Shown here piece by piece: positions 19,662-42,775 of a stretch of DNA of 64,000 bases. Within the stretch, counting starts at the first letter, position 1; every line of letters starts with the position of its first letter. The DNA lies in contig JAKVBG010000009.1 in NCBI GenBank assembly GCA_022447605.1, forward strand, positions 1-64,000, read 5' to 3'. The DNA comes from Mariniblastus sp. (lineage in GTDB: Bacteria > Planctomycetota > Planctomycetia > Pirellulales > Pirellulaceae). The translations under genes and the position numbers were made by a program. The notes below the pieces were generated by a model. That model ran no database searches. It saw nothing but the letters and a program-made list of their open reading frames with translations, and was not told the DNA's origin.

Positions 19662-22600
19662 TCAGGCGGAATCGGCCGAATCGGCCGGGTCGGCTGTACG
19701 GTCGTGGTGTTCGCGTAAAAACTGTTTGAATTCGGGCTGGTTCAACTGGTCGGCATGTTTCAGGTTGATCCGCACGACCTCCTTGCCCGCCTTGCTGGTC
19801 ACGCTCGGATCGTCGGCCAGGTCGGCCACCCGCCCCAGCGAGACGCTGTTCTCGGGGCCCGAGAGTTGCAGCCAGAGGGCGTCCGGTTTCTTGGTCTGGA
19901 TGCTGGCCCAGGGGTCTTTTCGGTCGGGCAGGTAGAAGTGCACGACCTGCTTGTTCTTCCAGAGGAAATTCGCCTCGGGCGAGACCTCCTGCAGCAGGTC
20001 GCGGAGGACTTCCAGCACCTCCATCTTCCACTGGACCTTGCGGCCGGTGGGGAATCCTTTCGCCATGAAGTGCCATTTCTGGCCCAGCTTGGCCCACGGG
20101 GTATGGTCATCGAGGTTCATCTCGACCCGCTTGACCCGGTTCTGGAAACTGGCGATCGCCTGGTCGAGGAACTTCCAGAAACCGGGGATGTTGATCTCCT
20201 GCCAGGAATAGGCGCGGATCTCAATCTCCTGGAATCCTTTCTTGTTATTCAGAACGCGCACGCGGGGCGTGTTGCCGTAGATCGGCAGTTCGTCCATCTC
20301 GTTGGCCGAGCGGAGCGGGATCTGCTCGAGCAGCTCCTCCCGTTTGAAGGTTCGCGAGCGGACCCGGAATTTCATCTTCAACAGCCACGCTTCTCCCGTG
20401 ATGGCGTGGAAGAACCAGCCTTCTGATTTTTTCTGGCCGGTGACCTCGACCACGGTCCGCTCTGACCAGTCCGTTTCGGCAAAGCCGTCTTCCTGCTGGA
20501 TCTTGTCGACGACCCGCTCCAGGATCTGTCCGTCCCAGTTGACCGGTTCCCCCTTGCGGCCGACCCGGTCCATCGTGTGCCAGCGGCGGCCGTCCGATTC
20601 CCACGGCATCTTGGTCGACTGGCCGACATCCTCGATATCGATATCGTCCTTCCGCCAACGGTCGACCTTGTGCGGGTCGTACTCGGGCCGTTCCTTGTAC
20701 GGTCCGGCCTCCAGCACCTCGGCCAACGCCTCGCCCGTATAACTCGGCGGCAGTTTTGATTTCGGTTTGGCCGCGCGGGCCGCGTATTCGACCACCTGTT
20801 CGGGCGTCCCCTGGACGACGACCTGCCCCCCCTGCACACCCGCCTCGGGGCCCATGTCGATCAACCAGTCGGCCGCCTTGATGATGTCCAGGTTGTGTTC
20901 GATCAGTACCACGCTGTTGCCCAGGTCGACCAGTCGCTGCAGCACCTCCAGCAGTTTGGCCAGGTCGTCAAAGTGCAGGCCGGTGGTCGGTTCATCCAGC
21001 AGGTAGAGCGTCCGCCCCGTATCGGGTCGGGCCAGTTCGGCTGCCAATTTGACCCGCTGCGCTTCGCCGCCCGAAAGGGTCGGCGCGCTCTGGCCGAGCG
21101 TCAGGTAACCGAGCCCCACGTCGCACAACGTCTGCAGGATGCGGCGGATCTTGGGGATGTTGTGGAACAGCTCGACCGCTTCGCCGCAGGGCATCTCCAG
21201 CACGTCGTTGATCGAGCGATTGTTGTAGCGGACAGCCAGTGTCTCGTCGTTGTAACGACGGCCGTGGCACGCTTCACACGGTACCCAGACATCCGGCAGG
21301 AAATGCATCTCGATGCAGATCTGACCGTTGCCGCAACACTCCTCGCACCGTCCGCCCGGCACGTTGAAACTGAAACGCCGGGCCGTGTAGCCGCGCAGCT
21401 TGGCATCCGGCAGGTGGGCGAACAGGTTGCGGATCAGTTCAAAGGCGCCGGTGTAGGTGGCCGGGTTGGAGGTCGGGCTGTTGCCGAGCGGGTTCTGATC
21501 GACCCGGATCACCTTGTTGATATGCTCGATGCCGGCGATGCCGCGGTGCCCGCCCGGGGTGGTCGAGGCGCGGTGCAACCGCTTGGCCAGCGAGTTGTAG
21601 AGCACATCGTTGATCAGCGAGCTCTTGCCACAGCCACTCGGGCCGGTGACGACGGTCAAGGTTCCCAGCGGGATCTGGACGTCGATCTCTTTCAGGTTGT
21701 TGTGATGCGCGCCCAGGATATCGAGTGTATCGGCCAGCGGCAGAGGAGGAGCCGGAGCGGGCTTTGCCTGCTTTTTCGCTCCTTTCTTCTTCGGTTTCTG
21801 GGGAACCTCTTCCACCGAGAGGGCCGGTCGGCGGTTGCTGGGGATCGGGATCGCTTTCTTGCCACTCAGGTACGGGCCGGTCACCGAGGCCCGCCGTTTC
21901 TGGACCTGGGCCGGGCTGCCGTGGGCCACGAGTTGGCCCCCGCCCGAGCCAGCCTGCGGTCCAAAATCGAAGACCTCGTCGCTGTTTTCGATAATCTCCC
22001 GGTCGTGCTCGACCACGATCAGCGTGTTGCCCAGGTCCCGCAGTCGATGCAGGGCCGACAACAGCCGGGTGTTGTCGCGGGGGTGCAGGCCGATCGTCGG
22101 TTCGTCCAAGACATACAGCACGCCGCACAAGCCGCTGCCCAGTTGGCTGGCCAGTCGTATTCGCTGCGCTTCACCGTTGGAGAGGGAGCCGGCCGTGCGG
22201 GCCAGGGTGATGTACTGCAAGCCGACATCGTTGAGGAATTCGACCCGGCTGCTGATTTCGCGGAGCAGTTCACCCGCCACCTTCGACTCTCGCCCGTCCA
22301 GTTTCCAGCTGGCGATCTCCTCGGCCAGTCGCCCAAATGGCATGCGACAGAGCCCGTCGATGACGTGGTCCCGAAAGCGGACGGCGCTGGCGTCGTCTCG
22401 CAGGCGACTGCCACCACAGGCGCCGCATTCGACCTCGCCGATCAGCGATTGCATCTTGTGTCGCAGCGAGGGGGAGAGTCGCGAGGCTTCTTCCAAGGTC
22501 GGGTAGACCCCCTTGAACTGGAAGGAGAAGACGACCTGTTGCTTGTCGGTCACATCGAACCAGCGATCCTGTGTCCCGTAGTAGATCAACCGTCGGTGGC

Positions 22601-25600
22601 GGGCATCGAGTTCATTGAACGGCGTATCGATCGGGATGCCGGTCGATTGGCAGAAGACTTCCAGCATCCGCTTGGCCAGCCGGGTGTTCATCTGTGGCCA
22701 GAGGCCGACCGCTCCGTCGCGGAGGGAGCGTTCCGGGTCGGGGATGACCATTTTCGGGTCGGCGCCCATCTGTGTGCCGATCCCCTCGCAGTCGTCGCAC
22801 CAGCCGAGTCGACTGTTGAACGAGAAGTTGTTGGGTGAGAGCCGCTCGAAACTGCGACCGCACGATTCGCAGGCCAGGTGCTGGCTGTGGCGGATCGTCT
22901 CCCACTGGTTTTCCGGTACCTCGTCCTGTGGGATGGCGACCGAGAGGACCCCCGCCCCCAGCGAGAGGGCCGTCTCGACACTGTCGGCGATGCGACCGTG
23001 CGATTTTTTCTGGACCACGAAGCGGTCGACGACCATTTCCACGGTGTGCCGTGAGCGGCGGTTCGGTGTGGGGGCTTCCTCGACCGGGTAGGTGATCCCG
23101 TCCAGGCGGACACGGGCAAACCCCTTGGAGCGGACCTCTTCCCACAGCTGCTCATACGACTGCGACGCATCGAGTTCCAGCGGGGCCAACAGGACCAGCT
23201 TTTGACCGTTGGGGTGCCGCATGATCTTGTCGACAATCTGGTCGCTGGTCTGGGTCCCGATCTTGATGGCGCACTCGGGACAGTACCCGGTCCCCAGGCG
23301 GGAGAACAGGATCCGCAAGTAATCGTAGACCTCGGTGATCGTGCCGACCGTGGAGCGAGGGGTCGAGCCGAGGTTCTTCTGCTCGATGGCGATGGCCGGG
23401 GAGAGACCTTCGATCTGGTCGACTTTCGGCTTTTCCAACTGGTTGACGAACTGGCGGGCATACGAGCTGAGGCTCTCGACATAGCGCCGCTGCCCCTCGG
23501 CGTAGATCGTATCCATCGCCAACGAGCTCTTGCCGCTGCCGCTGGGGCCACAGAAGACGGTCATCCGGTCCCGCGCGATGTCGGCATCCACCATCTTCAG
23601 ATTGTGCTGCTCCGCACCGCGCACCTTGATCTCGGTCGATTGCACCGGTTTGGCTGACCGTTTGACCCGGGTCGGCCGCTTCGTCTTGCCGACCGGTTTC
23701 TGGCCCCAGGCGCGGGCCAATGCCTGGCCCGTCATCGATCCCTTGGTCTTACTGATTTTTTCCGGCGGGCCGGCCGCCACCAGTTGGCCGCCACCAGCCC
23801 CTCCCTCGGGACCGAGGTCGATCACCCAGTCGGCCGCCTTGATCACTTCCAGGTTGTGTTCCACCACCAGCACGGTGTTGCCCGCATCGACAAACCCCTG
23901 CAACACGTTCAGCAGCAGTTGGATGTCGGCAAAGTGCAGCCCGGTGGTCGGTTCGTCCAGCAGGTACAACGTCTTGCCCGTGCTCCGCTTGACCAGTTCC
24001 CGCGCCAACTTGATCCGCTGGGCCTCGCCACCGGAGAGTGTGGGCGACGGTTGGCCGATCTTCAGGTAGTCCAGTCCGACGTCCCGCAAGGTCTGCAGCT
24101 TGGCCTGGATCTTCGGTATGTTTTCAAAGAAGTCGAGCGCTTCGGCGATGTCCATGTTCAGCACATCGGAAATCGATTTGCCTCGGTACTTGACCTGCAG
24201 TGTCTCCCGGTTGAACCGCTTTCCCTGGCAGACCGGGCAGGTGACCCAGACATCGGCCAGGAAATCCATCTCCAGCTTGTTGCTGCCGTTCCCTTCGCAG
24301 GCATCGCAGCGGCCACCTTTGACGTTGAAACTGAAGCGGCCCGGCTTGAATCCCCGTTTCTTGGCATCGGGCAACTGGGTGTACAGCTTGCGGATCTCAT
24401 CGAACAGCTTGATGTAGGTACCCGGGTTGCTGCGGGGGGTGCGGCCGATGGGGGATTGGTCGATGGCGATCATCTTGTCCATCAGTTCCAGGCCCTGCAG
24501 TTCCCGGAAATGGCCCGGGTCACCGATCCCGTGGTTCAGTTTTTCGCGCAGTGTCTCGACCAGGATGTCATTGACCAGGGAACTCTTGCCGCTGCCGCTG
24601 ACACCTGTTACGCAGACAAACATGCCCAGCGGGATTTCGACATCGATCCCCTTCAGGTTGTTCTGCTCAGCGCCCAGGATGCGGAACATCTTGTCCGGGT
24701 CGGGGGTCCGTCGCTGGGAGGGTGTGGAGATCGTCTTTTGGCCGGTCAGGTACTCGCCCGTTACGCTTTCAGTGGCCGTGGCGATGTCCTGGGGCGGGCC
24801 CTGGTAAACGACGTTCCCTCCATGCACGCCCGGGCCGGGACCGAAATCGATCAGATGGTCGGCTGCCCGCATCGTATCTTCGTCGTGTTCTACCACGACC
24901 ACCGTATTGCCCAGGTCGCGGAGGTGCTTCAGCGTGGCGATCAGCCGGTCATTGTCCCGCGGGTGCAGGCCGATGGAAGGTTCATCCAGGATGTAGAGGA
25001 CGCCCACCAGGCCGGCCCCGATCTGGCCCGCCAGGCGAATCCGTTGGCTCTCGCCACCGGAAAGGGTGGGGGCAGTTCGGTCGAGCGTCAGGTAATCGAG
25101 CCCGACGTTCAACAGGAATCCGAGTCGGTTGCGGATTTCTTTGACCGGTTCCTCGGCTACCAGTGTCCGCGTCTTATCCAGTTCCAGCTCGGTAAAGAAA
25201 GCATGGGCATCGGCGATCGACAGTTGGCAGATATCGGGCAGGGAGAGCGAGGGCGCGTCCTTGAACGCGGGACTCCGGGTCTCGATCCGGAAGTGCCGCG
25301 CCTGTTCGTTAAGGCGCTCGCCGTGACAGGCCGAACAGTCCATTTCATTCATGTACTGTTCCAGCTGGCGAATTTTCGGTGCGCTCTTGGCAGTCCGGTA
25401 TTTCTCGTCCAGTTCGGGGATCACTCCGTCGAACGTGCCGCCGTACTTCATCGGAGAATTGCCACCCCGCCAGGTGTACGTAATATGCAGGTCTCCTGTG
25501 CCGTACAGCCAGAGTGTCTGTAATTCTTCCGGTAGTTCTTCCCAGGCCGTCTCCAGCATCGTCCCCTCGGGCAGTTCCTGTAAGCGCTCGACGGTACTGG

Positions 25601-26630
25601 CCACCCCCTTGTAGATATGCCGTCTCCAACGCCCGAGATCCTTCCATTTTCCAACCAGTTCGATACACCCCTGCTGGAACGACTTGCCCGGGTCCGGGAT
25701 CAGCAGTTCCGGGTCAAAGCTGTAGACATCACCCAGACCGTCACAGCCGTCACACATCCCTTGGGGACTGTTGAACGAGAACATCTGGGGGGTGGGGGGC
25801 GTGAAGCTGACGCCGCAATTGGCACACGCATAGTCGGCCGAGTAGAGTCGGTCGGGCGAGCCCGGTTGCCGGCGGGAACGGCTCGGCCCGGCCTCTTCGG
25901 GAGGCGTCTCCTCTTCCACAGCGATCACGATGGTCCGTTTACCGATCTTCAGGCCGAGTTCCACCGCCTCACTCAGGCGGGCGCGGATCCCCGTCTTGGC
26001 TACCAGCCGGTCGATCACCACCTCGATATCGTGGCGGCGTTGCCGGTCCAGTTGGATGTCGTCAGCCAGGGAGCGGACCTCGCCATTGACACGAACCCGG
26101 GAGAATCCCTGCTTGAGGAGTTCGATAAACAGGTCGCGGTGTTCCCCCTTTTGCGCGCGGACGACAGGTGCCAGGACGGCGTAATGGGTACCCTTGGGGA
26201 GCAGCAGGATGCTGCCAATAATCTGGTCGCGGGTCTGCGCCGAGATCGGTTGGTCGCACTTGGGACAGAAGCCCTGTCCGGCCCGCGCGTAGAGGACCCG
26301 CAGGAAGTCGTAGATCTCGGTCATCGTTCCCACGGTGCTGCGCGGGTTGTTGCCAGACGATTTCTGTGAGATCGAAATGGAGGGGCTGAGGCCCGAGATC
26401 AGGTCGACATCCGGCTTTGGCATCTGCCCCAGGAATTGCCGGGCGAAACTCGACAGGCTTTCCACGTAGCGGCGCTGACCTTCGGCAAACACCGTGTCGA
26501 AGGCGAGTGAGCTCTTGCCGCTGCCACTTACGCCAGTCAGGCAAATCAGTTGATTACGAGGTAAGATCAGGTCGACGTCGCGCAAATTGTGTTCACGCGC
26601 GCCCTTGATCGTAATGTCCGAAGCAGGCAT
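19662..26630 (-). CDS. uvrA: Double UvrA: two fused UvrA units plus a C-terminal extension
   Basis: UvrA is the damage-recognition ATPase of nucleotide excision repair. This 2322-residue protein holds two complete UvrA sequences (about residues 1-975 and 1000-1975). Each has two ABC ATPases, a UvrB-binding domain and zinc-binding CxxC pairs. The Walker A loops are GVSGSGKSSLAFDT, GVSGSGKSSLVNDI, GPSGSGKSSLAMDT and GPSGCGKSSLINDV. Three ABC signatures are LSGGE, but the third is LSNGE (about residue 1483). All four Walker B sites end in LDEP. A tail of about 340 residues follows the second unit and has no domain I know. Chlamydial UvrA is also a fused double copy. I choose the ATG at 26628-26630, which starts MPASDITIKGAREHNLRDVD; 75 upstream bases are open. 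No SOS box is obvious. Confidence 0.95.
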   Translation of the reverse strand: MPASDITIKGAREHNLRDVDLILPRNQLICLTGVSGSGKSSLAFDTVFAEGQRRYVESLSSFARQFLGQMPKPDVDLISGLSPSISISQKSSGNNPRSTVGTMTEIYDFLRVLYARAGQGFCPKCDQPISAQTRDQIIGSILLLPKGTHYAVLAPVVRAQKGEHRDLFIELLKQGFSRVRVNGEVRSLADDIQLDRQRRHDIEVVIDRLVAKTGIRARLSEAVELGLKIGKRTIVIAVEEETPPEEAGPSRSRRQPGSPDRLYSADYACANCGVSFTPPTPQMFSFNSPQGMCDGCDGLGDVYSFDPELLIPDPGKSFQQGCIELVGKWKDLGRWRRHIYKGVASTVERLQELPEGTMLETAWEELPEELQTLWLYGTGDLHITYTWRGGNSPMKYGGTFDGVIPELDEKYRTAKSAPKIRQLEQYMNEMDCSACHGERLNEQARHFRIETRSPAFKDAPSLSLPDICQLSIADAHAFFTELELDKTRTLVAEEPVKEIRNRLGFLLNVGLDYLTLDRTAPTLSGGESQRIRLAGQIGAGLVGVLYILDEPSIGLHPRDNDRLIATLKHLRDLGNTVVVVEHDEDTMRAADHLIDFGPGPGVHGGNVVYQGPPQDIATATESVTGEYLTGQKTISTPSQRRTPDPDKMFRILGAEQNNLKGIDVEIPLGMFVCVTGVSGSGKSSLVNDILVETLREKLNHGIGDPGHFRELQGLELMDKMIAIDQSPIGRTPRSNPGTYIKLFDEIRKLYTQLPDAKKRGFKPGRFSFNVKGGRCDACEGNGSNKLEMDFLADVWVTCPVCQGKRFNRETLQVKYRGKSISDVLNMDIAEALDFFENIPKIQAKLQTLRDVGLDYLKIGQPSPTLSGGEAQRIKLARELVKRSTGKTLYLLDEPTTGLHFADIQLLLNVLQGFVDAGNTVLVVEHNLEVIKAADWVIDLGPEGGAGGGQLVAAGPPEKISKTKGSMTGQALARAWGQKPVGKTKRPTRVKRSAKPVQSTEIKVRGAEQHNLKMVDADIARDRMTVFCGPSGSGKSSLAMDTIYAEGQRRYVESLSSYARQFVNQLEKPKVDQIEGLSPAIAIEQKNLGSTPRSTVGTITEVYDYLRILFSRLGTGYCPECAIKIGTQTSDQIVDKIMRHPNGQKLVLLAPLELDASQSYEQLWEEVRSKGFARVRLDGITYPVEEAPTPNRRSRHTVEMVVDRFVVQKKSHGRIADSVETALSLGAGVLSVAIPQDEVPENQWETIRHSQHLACESCGRSFERLSPNNFSFNSRLGWCDDCEGIGTQMGADPKMVIPDPERSLRDGAVGLWPQMNTRLAKRMLEVFCQSTGIPIDTPFNELDARHRRLIYYGTQDRWFDVTDKQQVVFSFQFKGVYPTLEEASRLSPSLRHKMQSLIGEVECGACGGSRLRDDASAVRFRDHVIDGLCRMPFGRLAEEIASWKLDGRESKVAGELLREISSRVEFLNDVGLQYITLARTAGSLSNGEAQRIRLASQLGSGLCGVLYVLDEPTIGLHPRDNTRLLSALHRLRDLGNTLIVVEHDREIIENSDEVFDFGPQAGSGGGQLVAHGSPAQVQKRRASVTGPYLSGKKAIPIPSNRRPALSVEEVPQKPKKKGAKKQAKPAPAPPLPLADTLDILGAHHNNLKEIDVQIPLGTLTVVTGPSGCGKSSLINDVLYNSLAKRLHRASTTPGGHRGIAGIEHINKVIRVDQNPLGNSPTSNPATYTGAFELIRNLFAHLPDAKLRGYTARRFSFNVPGGRCEECCGNGQICIEMHFLPDVWVPCEACHGRRYNDETLAVRYNNRSINDVLEMPCGEAVELFHNIPKIRRILQTLCDVGLGYLTLGQSAPTLSGGEAQRVKLAAELARPDTGRTLYLLDEPTTGLHFDDLAKLLEVLQRLVDLGNSVVLIEHNLDIIKAADWLIDMGPEAGVQGGQVVVQGTPEQVVEYAARAAKPKSKLPPSYTGEALAEVLEAGPYKERPEYDPHKVDRWRKDDIDIEDVGQSTKMPWESDGRRWHTMDRVGRKGEPVNWDGQILERVVDKIQQEDGFAETDWSERTVVEVTGQKKSEGWFFHAITGEAWLLKMKFRVRSRTFKREELLEQIPLRSANEMDELPIYGNTPRVRVLNNKKGFQEIEIRAYSWQEINIPGFWKFLDQAIASFQNRVKRVEMNLDDHTPWAKLGQKWHFMAKGFPTGRKVQWKMEVLEVLRDLLQEVSPEANFLWKNKQVVHFYLPDRKDPWASIQTKKPDALWLQLSGPENSVSLGRVADLADDPSVTSKAGKEVVRINLKHADQLNQPEFKQFLREHHDRTADPADSADSA

Positions 26631-27014
26631 CTCTAGGCGACAGTTTCCGTTCTTGGCGCTGATTCTGTTGAAAATGCGAACTCGGCATTGTACCACCTGC
26701 ACCACCGATGTCTCAACCGCGTGCCGGCCGATTTAATCATCGCGTAAACCGGAGAAAACCGTAAAAAAAAGGGAAGAACAAACCTGCCCGTCCCCGGACT
26801 GGGGGCGGGCTCCCGACTCGATCCCGGGCCGGGGAGGCATCGCCCAACGGGTCATTTTTCCCTCGCCCGTGATCGTTGCCCCTGATGTTTTCCTCGTTCG
26901 ACAGGGCGGGCGCCTCGGGCTAAACTAGGTCCAGTTCTGTTGGCCGGGCTGTCGTGCGGCACGTCCAGCCGCGTTCATTTTTTGCTTGATGGTGTTTTGG
27001 TATCGGAGGGTTGT
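26631..27014. other. Divergent intergenic region with strong hairpin
   Basis: The 384 bases between uvrA and the DUF1080 gene contain a 10-bp GC hairpin at 26786-26810 (GCCCG-TCCCC, loop GGACT, GGGGG-CGGGC). On the minus strand it is followed within about 15 bases by a run of eight Ts at 26763-26770. It resembles a terminator reading towards uvrA, but no minus-strand gene lies upstream of it, so it could be an attenuator in the uvrA leader. I see no gene in this gap. Confidence 0.5.
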
Positions 27015-30327: not shown

Positions 30328-31551
30328 CTACCGCCGTTTTTCGAACAAGTCTTCCGGCTTTTGTCCGGCCGGGATGGTCTTGAGTTTGATCGACTGGCGG
30401 TATCGCTCCATGATATGGCCCCTCGAGACCTGTTCACACCGGATACCGACATTCTCCACAATTTGCGAGGAAAAAAACAAGGGCAAGTCGACAATCCAGT
30501 ATTCGGTGTCGTTGTGAAACCGTTCCCACGGCTCGGAAAAGGAAGGGATGGTGGTTCGCATGGCCAGTTGCTGTCCCTGGCGCGGTCCGGAAATGGCAAC
30601 CCCGGTTAACGGGTCCCATACCGACCCGCTCTGTTGGTCGGTGAAACCCATTTCGTGGGGCTCAAACAGCAAGGTTTCCCCCTCCATCTGTCGGTCAAAG
30701 ACTGTGGCTGATCCGGTCGCTTCCCAGAAGACAACGACCACCGGCTCACCGGCGTATTGGTCATTCAAAATGGGCTGGTTGATCAACTGGTCGAACCGCC
30801 ATGCCCTGGGGCTCTCTCCCGCTTTTCTCATTCCGATCAGGAACTTTCCCATTCGTCCCTGGTAACATTCGTTATCGTAAAAGCTGGTCATCGGTGGCAG
30901 CGTCATCACGCTGGTCAACGGGTTTTTTTCTTTCCATGTTTTCCAGTCCGTCAATACGGAGGCGATGATCGGCAAGGTTTGTCCCTGACGTTTACCCTGC
31001 ATTGCCTTTCCCAACAGTTGGCTCCACAAAGAACCGGAAGATTGATCTTCCAGGATCAGGCTGCGCTGCCAGGTTTTCCCCGACCCGAACAGCGTGAGCA
31101 CCTGATCTTGCTGCTGACGGTCATACACGATGCCGTTGAAGCATATCTGTCACCAGGTGACCAGGATCGGTTGGTCGCCCAGGTAATCGTTGATGACCTC
31201 CTGCTTGGGGCCGGTTAACTGGTTGAGCGGGTAGGCGCGGTAGTCACCGTTGAGGGCAACCCCGATGACCAAGTCATCGTCCTTCACGAATTCGGACGAC
31301 TTTAAATCCACAGCCCGCTCGATGGGTGGCTCGATAATCGGTTGTTGCACCGGTTTGACATGGACGGGCCGGAACGCGCCGTCGGTCCCTGTCGACTCGG
31401 GGACGGAAGACCCGCAACCGGGTAACATTAACCAGGCACTGGAGAGGAGCAGTAGCCGGACGGAGGGCCGGCCAGGAAACGGACTGATACGGCTGACGTA
31501 CCACCGGAATCGGGACATGCTGGCTCTACGGTTCAACCTGTCAGAAGGCAT
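30328..31551 (-). CDS. DUF3179 lipoprotein, candidate selenoprotein (in-frame UGA at 31150-31152)
   Basis: This DUF3179 protein is read through one internal TGA (codon 134). Before it are a lipobox LPGC (Cys 46), which predicts a membrane-anchored lipoprotein, and the domain start DDLVIGVALNGDYRAYPLNQ ... DQPILVTW. After it the frame continues for 273 codons: QICFNGIVYDR, then SLWSQLLGKAMQGKRQGQTL and a repeat of the theme, GSVWDPLTGVAISGPRQGQ. Family members usually read VTYCPLC..VVFDR or VTWC..C, so the TGA falls on the first Cys of CxxC, and UxxC would result. A SECIS-like hairpin follows at 31112-31143. Alternatives are a nonsense mutation or a sequencing error. The start is ATG at 31549-31551, or 31516-31518. 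It is downstream of mtnA. Confidence 0.75.
31112..31143 (-). promoter_or_regulatory. SECIS-like stem-loop for the DUF3179 UGA
   Basis: On the minus-strand mRNA, counting from the base after the UGA, U7-G8-C9 pairs with G36-C37-A38 and A14-C15-G16-G17 pairs with C30-C31-G32-U33. C18-A19-U20 then pairs with A26-U27-G28, with A29 bulged. The apical loop is CGUGU at 21-25, so it starts 20 bases after the UGA and has G in its second position. This agrees with the bacterial SECIS rules of a loop 16-37 bases downstream and a G among the first two loop bases. The pairing was drawn by eye, without an energy calculation. Confidence 0.55.
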
Positions 31552-31597: not shown

Positions 31598-32674
31598 TCA
31601 GGTGACCTGCAGGACGTGCTGGATATTATTGCGATGAACGGGCTGGATGATACCTTTTTCCGTAATGATCGCTTCAATAAGGTCAGCGGGGGTTACGTCA
31701 AAGGCTGGATTGTAAACCTGGATACCATGCGGCGCCGTCTGCCGCCCAAAACCGTGGGTGATTTCTTCTGCCTGTCGCTCTTCAATCGGGATTTCATCCC
31801 CGCTTTGCAGTGACAGGTCAAACGTGCTGCTGGGAGCCGCAATATAGAAAGGGATGCCATGGGCACGTGCCAGGACGGCAACCGAGTAGGTGCCGATCTT
31901 GTTGGCCGCATCGCCATTGGCCGCAATCCGATCGGCCCCGGTGACGACCGCCTGGATTTTCCCTTCTTTCATCACCTGAGCAGCCATCGAGTCACAGATC
32001 AATGTGGCATCGATTCCACGTTGCAACAATTCCCACGCCGTCAATCGGGCGCCTTGCAGCAAGGGGCGGGTCTCGTCTACGAAAACGTGAAACGATCGGC
32101 CCTGGTCCTGGGCCGTAAAAAACACACTCAAGGCGGTGCCATATTCCGCCGTCGCCAAACCGCCCGCATTGCAGTGGGTCAGGACACCCTGGACCTCGTC
32201 ACCGAGCAGCTCGGCCCCAAACTTTCCGATCGCCCGGCACATCTCCCGGTCTTCCAGATGAATGGCCCGGGCTTCGTCCAGCATACGGGCCGTGATCTCG
32301 CTCGGTGTCAACTCGCCGCGCAAGGAGAGGCAGAGCTGGTGCATTCGGTCCAGTGCCCAGAACAGGTTGACGGCCGTAGGCCGACTGGCAGCCAGGTGGT
32401 CCCGGGTCTGGCTGGCGGTGGCAAAGTACGCTTCGTCGTCGTGTGGATCAGCCGACTGCAGTCCAATCACGTAGCCGTAGGCGGCGGCAATGCCGATGGC
32501 CGGTGCGCCGCGCACCCGTAACATCTTGATCGCTTCCCAGACCGTTTCCACGTCGCGGCATTCGATCTGCTTGATTTCACCGGGTAACATCGTCTGGTCG
32601 ATCATGACCAGGTAGCCCTCGACAGCACATCCTGGCCATTGCAGCGTTTCAAGATGGCTGTCGGTTGAGGACAT
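31598..32674 (-). CDS. mtnA: S-methyl-5-thioribose-1-phosphate isomerase
   Basis: This enzyme converts 5-methylthioribose 1-phosphate to 5-methylthioribulose 1-phosphate in methionine salvage. The characteristic motifs are RVRGAPAIGIAAAYGYVIG, VLTHCNAGGLATAEYGTAL (active-site Cys), DETRPLLQGARLTAWELLQ, VTGADRIAANGDAANKIGTY (catalytic Asp) and YIAAPSSTFDL near the end. The 358-residue length is typical, and there is no sign of the eIF2B-type variant. The upstream neighbour purE lies 26 bases before it on the same strand. The DUF3179 gene follows 46 bases after its stop codon, or further if its later start is used. No other mtn gene is in the window. Confidence 0.95.
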   Translation of the reverse strand: MSSTDSHLETLQWPGCAVEGYLVMIDQTMLPGEIKQIECRDVETVWEAIKMLRVRGAPAIGIAAAYGYVIGLQSADPHDDEAYFATASQTRDHLAASRPTAVNLFWALDRMHQLCLSLRGELTPSEITARMLDEARAIHLEDREMCRAIGKFGAELLGDEVQGVLTHCNAGGLATAEYGTALSVFFTAQDQGRSFHVFVDETRPLLQGARLTAWELLQRGIDATLICDSMAAQVMKEGKIQAVVTGADRIAANGDAANKIGTYSVAVLARAHGIPFYIAAPSSTFDLSLQSGDEIPIEERQAEEITHGFGRQTAPHGIQVYNPAFDVTPADLIEAIITEKGIIQPVHRNNIQHVLQVT

Positions 32675-41353: not shown

Positions 41354-42775
41354 ATGCATACGAAACTGGTTGTGATTGGTGGCGGCCCCGGTGGCTACGC
41401 GGCAGCGTTCCTGGCCGCGGACGTGGGAATCGAGGTAACCTTGATCGAGGCGGCTGGCCGCATGGGCGGAACCTGCCTGTTGCGGGGCTGTATCCCGTCC
41501 AAGGCGCTGCTTCATGTGGCCCGGGTCATCTCTGAGGCAGAAGAAATGGGCGAGGACTGGGGAGTTGATTTCGGCAGTCCCCGGATCGAATTGGCCCAAT
41601 TGCGGGAACGCAAGGAGAAAGTGATCAGCACCCTGTCGGGTGGGTTGGGCCAATTGGCCAAACGCAGGAACGTGACCGTGATCAAGGCCCACGCACGTTT
41701 CCTGGATGCCAACACGCTGTCCCTTGAGGGGGGTGACGACACGATCCCGGAAAGCAAGCAGTTGACATTTGACCAGTGTATCGTGGCCAGCGGCAGCATT
41801 CCTGCCATGCCGGGCGCTTTCGATATCGGTTCCGATCGCGTGATGGACTCTACCGGCGCTCTCGAACTGGCCGATATTCCAGGCTCGATGCTGGTGGTCG
41901 GTGGCGGCTATATCGGTTTGGAGATGGGGACGGTTTACGCTGGTCTGGGAACGGACGTCAGCGTGGTTGAATTACAGGACGGGCTGTTGATGGGCGCCGA
42001 CCGCGACCTGGTCCGCCCGCTGCACCGCCGTTTGAAGCAGCTGTTCCAGGATCGCATCTTCCTGAACACGAAGGTAGGTAGCATTTCGTTGGACGGCGAA
42101 CAGGTGGCCGTGACGTTCGAGGGACCCGACAAGTTCGGCACCGAGCGGTACGACCGTGTGCTGGTCTCGGTTGGCCGTCGCCCCAACACGTTTGATCTGG
42201 GCCTGGAAAACGTAGGGGTTCAACTCGATCAACGTGGGTTTATCCTGCATGATGACCAGATGCGAACCGACGTTCCCAATATCTTTGTGATTGGCGATGC
42301 GGCGGGTGAACCGATGCTGGCCCACAAGGCGAACCATGAAGGCCGCTTGGCGGTTGAGGTGATTCACGGGCAACCGGTGCGGTTTGATAAGCGAGCCATC
42401 CCTGCCGTGGTCTTTACCGATCCCGAGATTGCCTGGAGCGGGATCACGGTCGAGGAGGCGAAAGCCGAAGGTGTCGCGCACGAAGTTTGCATCTACCCCT
42501 GGGCAGCCAGTGGCCGGGCCCAGGCGTTGGGCCGGACCGAGGGGCTGACCAAGTGGATTGTCGACCCGGAGACGGAGAGGGTACTCGGCTGTGGCATTGT
42601 CGGGCCAGGGGCCGGTGAGTTGATCGCCGAAGCGACCCTGGCCATCGAGATGGGTTGCGTGGTTCGGGACATTGCCGAGACGATCCATGCGCATCCCACG
42701 CTGAGTGAAACGATGATGAATGCCAGCGAGGTGTTCTATGGGACGGCGACCGAGATCTACAAACCCAAAAAGTGA
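41354..42775 (+). CDS. lpdA: Dihydrolipoyl dehydrogenase
   Basis: This flavoprotein (E3) reoxidises dihydrolipoyl groups of the pyruvate and 2-oxoglutarate dehydrogenase complexes. It has the FAD Rossmann motif VIGGGPGGYAAAFLAADVG, the redox-active disulfide GGTCLLRGCIPSKALLH (with LLRG between the cysteines rather than the common LNVG) and the NAD motif LVVGGGYIGLEMGTVYAGLG. IFVIGDAAGEPMLAHKA and the catalytic His-Glu pair in IHAHPTLSETM complete it. The 473-residue length is usual. It lies upstream of map. The E1 and E2 components are not nearby. Confidence 0.94.
   Translation: MHTKLVVIGGGPGGYAAAFLAADVGIEVTLIEAAGRMGGTCLLRGCIPSKALLHVARVISEAEEMGEDWGVDFGSPRIELAQLRERKEKVISTLSGGLGQLAKRRNVTVIKAHARFLDANTLSLEGGDDTIPESKQLTFDQCIVASGSIPAMPGAFDIGSDRVMDSTGALELADIPGSMLVVGGGYIGLEMGTVYAGLGTDVSVVELQDGLLMGADRDLVRPLHRRLKQLFQDRIFLNTKVGSISLDGEQVAVTFEGPDKFGTERYDRVLVSVGRRPNTFDLGLENVGVQLDQRGFILHDDQMRTDVPNIFVIGDAAGEPMLAHKANHEGRLAVEVIHGQPVRFDKRAIPAVVFTDPEIAWSGITVEEAKAEGVAHEVCIYPWAASGRAQALGRTEGLTKWIVDPETERVLGCGIVGPGAGELIAEATLAIEMGCVVRDIAETIHAHPTLSETMMNASEVFYGTATEIYKPKK

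Follow-up and report, generated by a model that had tools for sequence, protein, structure and literature searches.

A DUF3179 gene with one in-frame UGA codon

The window analyzed here, a stretch of 64,000 nucleotides from a Mariniblastus sp. genome, carries on its minus strand a gene whose product matches the DUF3179 family and whose reading frame holds one internal UGA codon. This gene, the features assigned to it, and its upstream neighbor are as follows.

31598..32674, minus strand: upstream neighbor, IF-2B family (Pfam)
30328..31551, minus strand: gene for a predicted DUF3179 selenoprotein of 407 residues, Sec at residue 134 (frame translation, Pfam match)
31414..31425, minus strand: lipobox-like LPGC, with Cys46 as a possible lipid site (by eye, orthologue comparison)
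30889..31329, minus strand: DUF3179 stretch 1, carrying the putative Sec (Pfam, genome search)
31150..31152, minus strand: in-frame UGA, presumed Sec residue 134, first position of UxxC (translation, alignment column)
31141..31143, minus strand: partner Cys, residue 137, +3 position of UxxC (translation, alignment)
31118..31135, minus strand: SECIS-like hairpin at UGA offsets 17-34 (CGGCAU-CGUGU-AUGaCCG; six pairs, a bulged A, and the loop CGUGU)
30508..30834, minus strand: DUF3179 stretch 2, a repeat that lacks the Cys/Sec motif (Pfam, genome search)

Minus-strand translation from 31551 to 30328 yields 408 codons with a single internal stop, the TGA at 31152-31150 (codon 134), beyond which 273 sense codons precede the terminal stop. 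The residues around codon 134 are VTW-[TGA]-QIC-FNGIVYDR and, in wider context, ILVTW-[TGA]-QICFNGIVYDRQ. The read-through product matches Pfam DUF3179 (PF11376) in two stretches with 166.5 bits (E 1.2e-48; curated cut-off, 27 bits), and its halves match the family separately, with E values of 6.2e-10 before and 1.3e-27 after the TGA. Translation and Pfam thereby confirm, on the minus strand, a sequence-only reading of this DNA that had described one stop at 31150-31152 followed by 273 codons with DUF3179 homology; translation and the alignment column likewise confirm its alignment of the UGA with the first Cys of the CxxC motif in this family, with the second Cys (QIC) kept. DUF3179 was the only domain found in a Pfam scan of the protein, and NCBIfam holds no family for either the whole protein or the part downstream of the TGA. 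A whole-genome DUF3179 search returned the same locus with one TGA inside, its two matches corresponding to stretches 1 and 2 of the gene, and found no second DUF3179 gene in the source genome (94% complete, 203 contigs). The start codon is uncertain, as the ATG at 31551 and an in-frame ATG at residue 12 are both candidates; upstream of the former, the frame is open to 31692. A scan of the window lists dozens of TGA codons flanked by open frame before and after, and by eye we read the others as shadows of other genes or as gene-gene junctions; TGA-134 is more than a chance case, because the sequences before and after it match the same family in register and because relatives carry TGA in the same column. 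Within the window, Rfam gave no match at gathering scores and ARAGORN found no tRNA.

The neighbor upstream, presumably of the methylthioribose-1-phosphate isomerase type, ends in an ordinary TGA stop 46 bases before the ATG at 31551. The gene order purE, IF-2B-family gene, DUF3179 gene, unknown gene, and condensation-domain gene is conserved in two genomes of the same genus (G026 and G005), which are also the only ones in the genus, besides the source genome, with a close match to the protein (65% and 54%, respectively); 14 of the 28 genomes of the genus, the source genome included, have any DUF3179 match at E 0.001. Against the G026 orthologue, dN/dS is 0.24/1.38 (approximately 0.17) before the UGA and 0.22/2.08 (approximately 0.11) after it, ratios that are rough since synonymous sites are near saturation and some dS values against another same-genus orthologue (L015) lie beyond estimate. 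Judged by these comparisons, purifying selection is similar on both sides of the UGA.

At its N-terminus, the protein has a hydrophobic run that ends in LPGC, with LFGC and FPGC at this place in two same-genus orthologues (by eye), and a lipoprotein signal is plausible on this basis. A Pro at position -2 is unusual for the lipobox consensus; the lipobox proposed in the sequence-only reading thus stands as a lipobox-like LPGC after a hydrophobic run, but one that departs from the usual consensus.

Conservation of the UGA, the hairpin, and the selenocysteine machinery

Homologues with UGA and homologues with Cys were both found at the position of codon 134. In a first set of 70 loci, 30 of them fetched by search (the window's own included) and 40 chosen so that both TGA-bearing and stop-free matches were represented, the column holds UGA in 53, Cys in 14, Ser in one, and Tyr in one, with one locus unalignable; 53/70 is not a prevalence, as the loci were partly hand-picked. 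The Ser, Tyr, and unalignable loci were dropped from later counts. A second collection of 66 loci, obtained by a scan of GTDB species genomes and overlapping the first set in several contigs, has UGA in 60, Cys in five, and one unreadable column; the titles of its UGA loci name Planctomycetota (under various names), Verrucomicrobia, and Candidatus Poribacteria. Sec or Cys is thus nearly constant at this column (67 of 69 aligned loci). Additional stops occur inside the matched stretch in a few relatives (L016, L031, L036, and G066:C125 in the first set; L113, L115, L138, and L145 in the second), which for some may only reflect alignments that extend past the gene end. The frames of both same-genus orthologues are intact; the decay in close relatives that would have spoken for loss of function was not seen in these two.

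A quickly computed tree of 105 rows, for which the program warns of long branches, places the window gene with L014 and L015 (SH-aLRT 100), within a larger group (SH-aLRT 95) of 77 rows that comprises 71 with Sec and six with Cys. Starred branches require three or more Sec/Cys changes, and the minimum on that tree is eight. As far as the tree can tell, Sec prevails in this clade and has been replaced by Cys in some members. Two loci with a Cys codon in a CxxG motif and a decayed hairpin remnant (L037 and L059, in G023 and G027, respectively) look like such Sec-to-Cys replacements; both genomes also carry a UGA-type DUF3179 gene (L052 and L021) as well as SelA, at least in part, and tRNA-Sec was found in neither. 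Two further types were observed. A longer DUF3179 type, with frames of 485-552 aa, is present in nine genomes of the same genus (L050-L058) and also has UGA at the motif (UTLCG); four shorter DUF3179 relatives (L081-L084) have UxxE in place of UxxC and form the hairpin with its full six pairs.

The hairpin of the window gene starts 14 nt 3' of the UGA and is weak by itself (-2.8 kcal/mol). Across relatives, the stem lies at offsets 17-33 from the UGA and the loop is mostly CGUGU. Hairpins were scored by six fixed pairs, or by a register with one bulged base, with a threshold of at least five pairs. With either register allowed, 51/53 Sec loci of the first set reach this threshold as compared to 2/14 Cys loci (L037 and L059); if the bulged register is left out, the counts are 47/53 and 0/14, and in registers slid by 1 to 6 at least five pairs are formed in at most 5/53 Sec and 3/14 Cys loci. 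The second set gives 60/60 Sec loci versus 2/5 Cys loci. The two Sec loci of the first set that fall below the threshold, L077 and L078, form a stem of seven pairs in a different register. Among 88 distinct Sec sequences, pair 21-29 is A-T in 60, G-C in 26, A-C (the L077/L078 type) in two, and G-T in none. The third base of the Tyr or His codon at +9 thus goes with codon +7: it is T where +7 is Ile (ATC/ATA) or Met, and C where +7 is Val (GTN), a choice that the protein sequence does not impose. By this comparison of sequences, the changes in the hairpin are compensating and in part synonymous. Minimum-energy z-scores (48 nt from the UGA) did not discriminate between Sec and Cys loci (mean, -0.33 for n=53 and -0.40 for n=14; p 0.64).

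The genes for selenocysteine synthesis and insertion, for which the sequence-only reading had proposed a search, are all present in the source genome above curated cut-offs, namely tRNA-Sec (selC; contig C159, 68.7 bits), SelB (377 bits), SelA (574 bits), and SelD (271 bits). SelD (L048; G000:C160:164144-165052) lies within an open frame of 733 aa and may be fused to another domain. Among 197 related genomes, 105 have a tRNA-Sec match at E 1e-10 or better, including 39/44 genomes with a TGA-containing DUF3179 gene as compared to 66/153 others (Fisher p 3e-8, with shared ancestry ignored). The five genomes with a TGA-containing DUF3179 gene in which tRNA-Sec was not detected (G023, G027, G032, G039, and G064) are all drafts; four of them have SelA above the cut-off, and G023, which is 71% complete, has only a SelA fragment. 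One other genome (G077) has two tRNA-Sec matches above the cut-off, with 69.8 and 58.9 bits.

Predicted selenocysteine insertion, redox role, and alternative readings

The sel genes and the conserved SECIS-like hairpin support the UxxC motif and the selenocysteine insertion put forward in the sequence-only reading, and we regard insertion at UGA-134 as nearly certain. SelA and SelD would provide Sec-tRNA and selenophosphate, and SelB carrying Sec-tRNA would recognize the hairpin that begins 14 nt past the UGA, such that UGA-134 would be decoded as selenocysteine in an exported, probably lipid-anchored DUF3179 protein with two repeats. The selenol would then most likely act as the nucleophile in an extracytoplasmic redox reaction. 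With regard to the group that resolves this reaction, the +3 residue is Cys at 46 of the 53 Sec loci, the other seven having G, A, T, or E there, and the same-genus orthologue L015 has UxxG; conventional CxxC exchange is therefore not the mechanism for all of these proteins. Resolution may be by the +3 Cys where it is present and by another thiol where it is absent. Two further Cys are common to the three orthologues, one in CYxGR[ML]G between the repeats and one in CE[EQ]VS in the tail, and could serve as alternative partners. We put the probability of this reading as a whole, an exported two-repeat DUF3179 protein that is probably lipid-anchored, has Sec at UGA-134, and acts in redox chemistry, at about 0.87; a thiol/selenol redox role rather than metal binding is, taken by itself, somewhat the better prediction.

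If the TGA were instead a true stop, the locus would be a pseudogene or would encode two polypeptides, the second restarting at the GTG at 31128, from which a 266-aa frame does run downstream of the TGA; the additional stops in the matched stretch of a few relatives also fit this possibility. Against it, TGA occupies one column in most loci of both overlapping sets, selection is alike before and after it, both same-genus orthologues are intact with conserved gene order, and the window frame has no further stop, all of which makes termination at codon 134 very improbable. An error of sequencing or assembly could be suspected in a draft of 203 contigs, but the same codon recurs together with a matching hairpin in the UGA loci of both sets, nearly all of them from other assemblies, and we consider this source of the TGA negligible. 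We give equally little credence to genome-wide reading of UGA as another amino acid, given that the upstream gene terminates at TGA, that TGA codons at 42773, 44880, and 54418 separate adjacent same-strand genes in the window, and that homologues without UGA have Cys at the column in 14 of 16 aligned cases.

A different alternative concerns the role of the residue rather than its identity, i.e., that Sec/Cys serves mainly to bind a metal or cluster, or is left over from such a ligand, in a Rieske-like fold and is not a redox center of the dithiol type. An AlphaFold2 model (mean pLDDT 87 for the mature protein, 93 for the Sec-bearing domain alone) gave no Foldseek match in the PDB that reached E 0.001. 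Among the best 50 matches listed for each, all those with a probability above 0.5 are Rieske-fold proteins, five for the whole model (8hn2, 3d89, 5cxm, 3gkq, and 4aiv) and eight for the Sec domain (5bok, 3d89, two chains of 3c0d, 4aiv, 4nbh, 1fqt, and 6ll0), counting small subunits of nitrite reductase and certain ferredoxins, which we take to have this fold. By strand order in the model, Sec apparently closes the strand that leads into loop 2, in the place of the Cys of the Rieske CPxH motif, so that UxxC would correspond to the CxxH loop of Rieske [2Fe-2S] proteins (PF00355). In the wider clade, His is frequent at +1 (93% in alignment A2), at +4 (70%), and in an LWSHLLG motif (92%), as would suit a ligand. 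However, the Rieske matches reach probabilities of up to 0.97 but have E values of 0.054 or more; TM-scores normalized by target length are 0.39-0.59 for small Rieske proteins, such that the resemblance is partial, and by strand order the loop-1 ligands have no counterpart in the DUF3179 model. Unlike Rieske proteins, the window protein lacks the CxH...CxxH set of cluster ligands (sequence and column composition), and it has Q, F, and Q at the three His positions. A ligand role is thus improbable.

Homology of DUF3179 to Rieske proteins was considered and is unsupported by profiles, as the profile comparison gave a probability of 1.3% and 2/40 column shuffles scored equally high. A sequence-profile search for a relative of solved structure gave one match (E 0.32), taken as chance. 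In a viral structure library (BFVD), the model resembles uncharacterized giant-virus proteins, the best match being A0A1V0SD44 of Indivirus (E 1.3e-6), followed by A0A1V0SF28 of Hokovirus (E 0.017). On the strength of the model, one may speculate that DUF3179 is a doubled Rieske-type fold that lost its cluster and in which the ligand Cys of loop 2 became a catalytic Cys/Sec, making the protein a selenol enzyme outside the cell that needs only the first motif residue, as its partner can be C, G, A, T, or E; we consider this history doubtful.

Relation to known DUF3179 proteins

The sequence-only reading had taken a selenium-dependent DUF3179 protein to be new, which is wrong, as two reviews (PMC9312934, 2022; PMC13188914, 2026) already list one; their Table 1 has the entry "DUF3179 domain-containing protein, PF11376, UxxC/T", credited to Zhang and Gladyshev 2007, and the 2022 review ranks it under "Predicted". 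The title of the 2007 report, as cited in both reviews, refers to a deltaproteobacterial symbiont. Selenoproteins have also been reported in two planctomycete genomes (PMC4807772), and a planctomycete DUF3179 protein may already be among the supplementary candidates of that study. Within the open-licence literature searched, the two reviews make no mention of planctomycetes nor, in the main text, of Rieske proteins; one further open-licence paper has DUF3179 in a single table row. The window gene and the protein of the reviews share the Pfam domain, the putative Sec at the first position of UxxC, and prediction from sequence; they differ in that the gene described here is from a planctomycete and has two DUF3179 stretches. 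The Cys-type DUF3179 proteins (VTYCPLC) of other planctomycetes (e.g., L063, L064, and L069) have the same domain and the same column, but a Cys codon in it, and a main-register hairpin of at least five pairs in none of the 14 Cys loci. From its sequence, the window gene is a further case of an already predicted selenoprotein type, in a clade that is mostly of the Sec type.

An apparent pseudogene thus becomes a well-supported predicted selenoprotein. Gene calling with UGA only as a stop would truncate the DUF3179 proteins of Planctomycetota, Verrucomicrobiota, and Poribacteria at this motif. A nearly invariant Sec/Cys whose partner varies speaks against the customary assumption of a CxxC pair. 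As Sec is the rule in the supported group (71 of 77 rows), this clade is a good setting in which to ask what DUF3179 does and why selenium is retained in it.

Elsewhere in the window, the minus strand at 19662-26705 has a frame of 2347 aa that by eye contains two UvrA-like halves in tandem, i.e., a double UvrA, with a repeated motif of the type GKSSLA.DT..AEGQRRYVESLSS.
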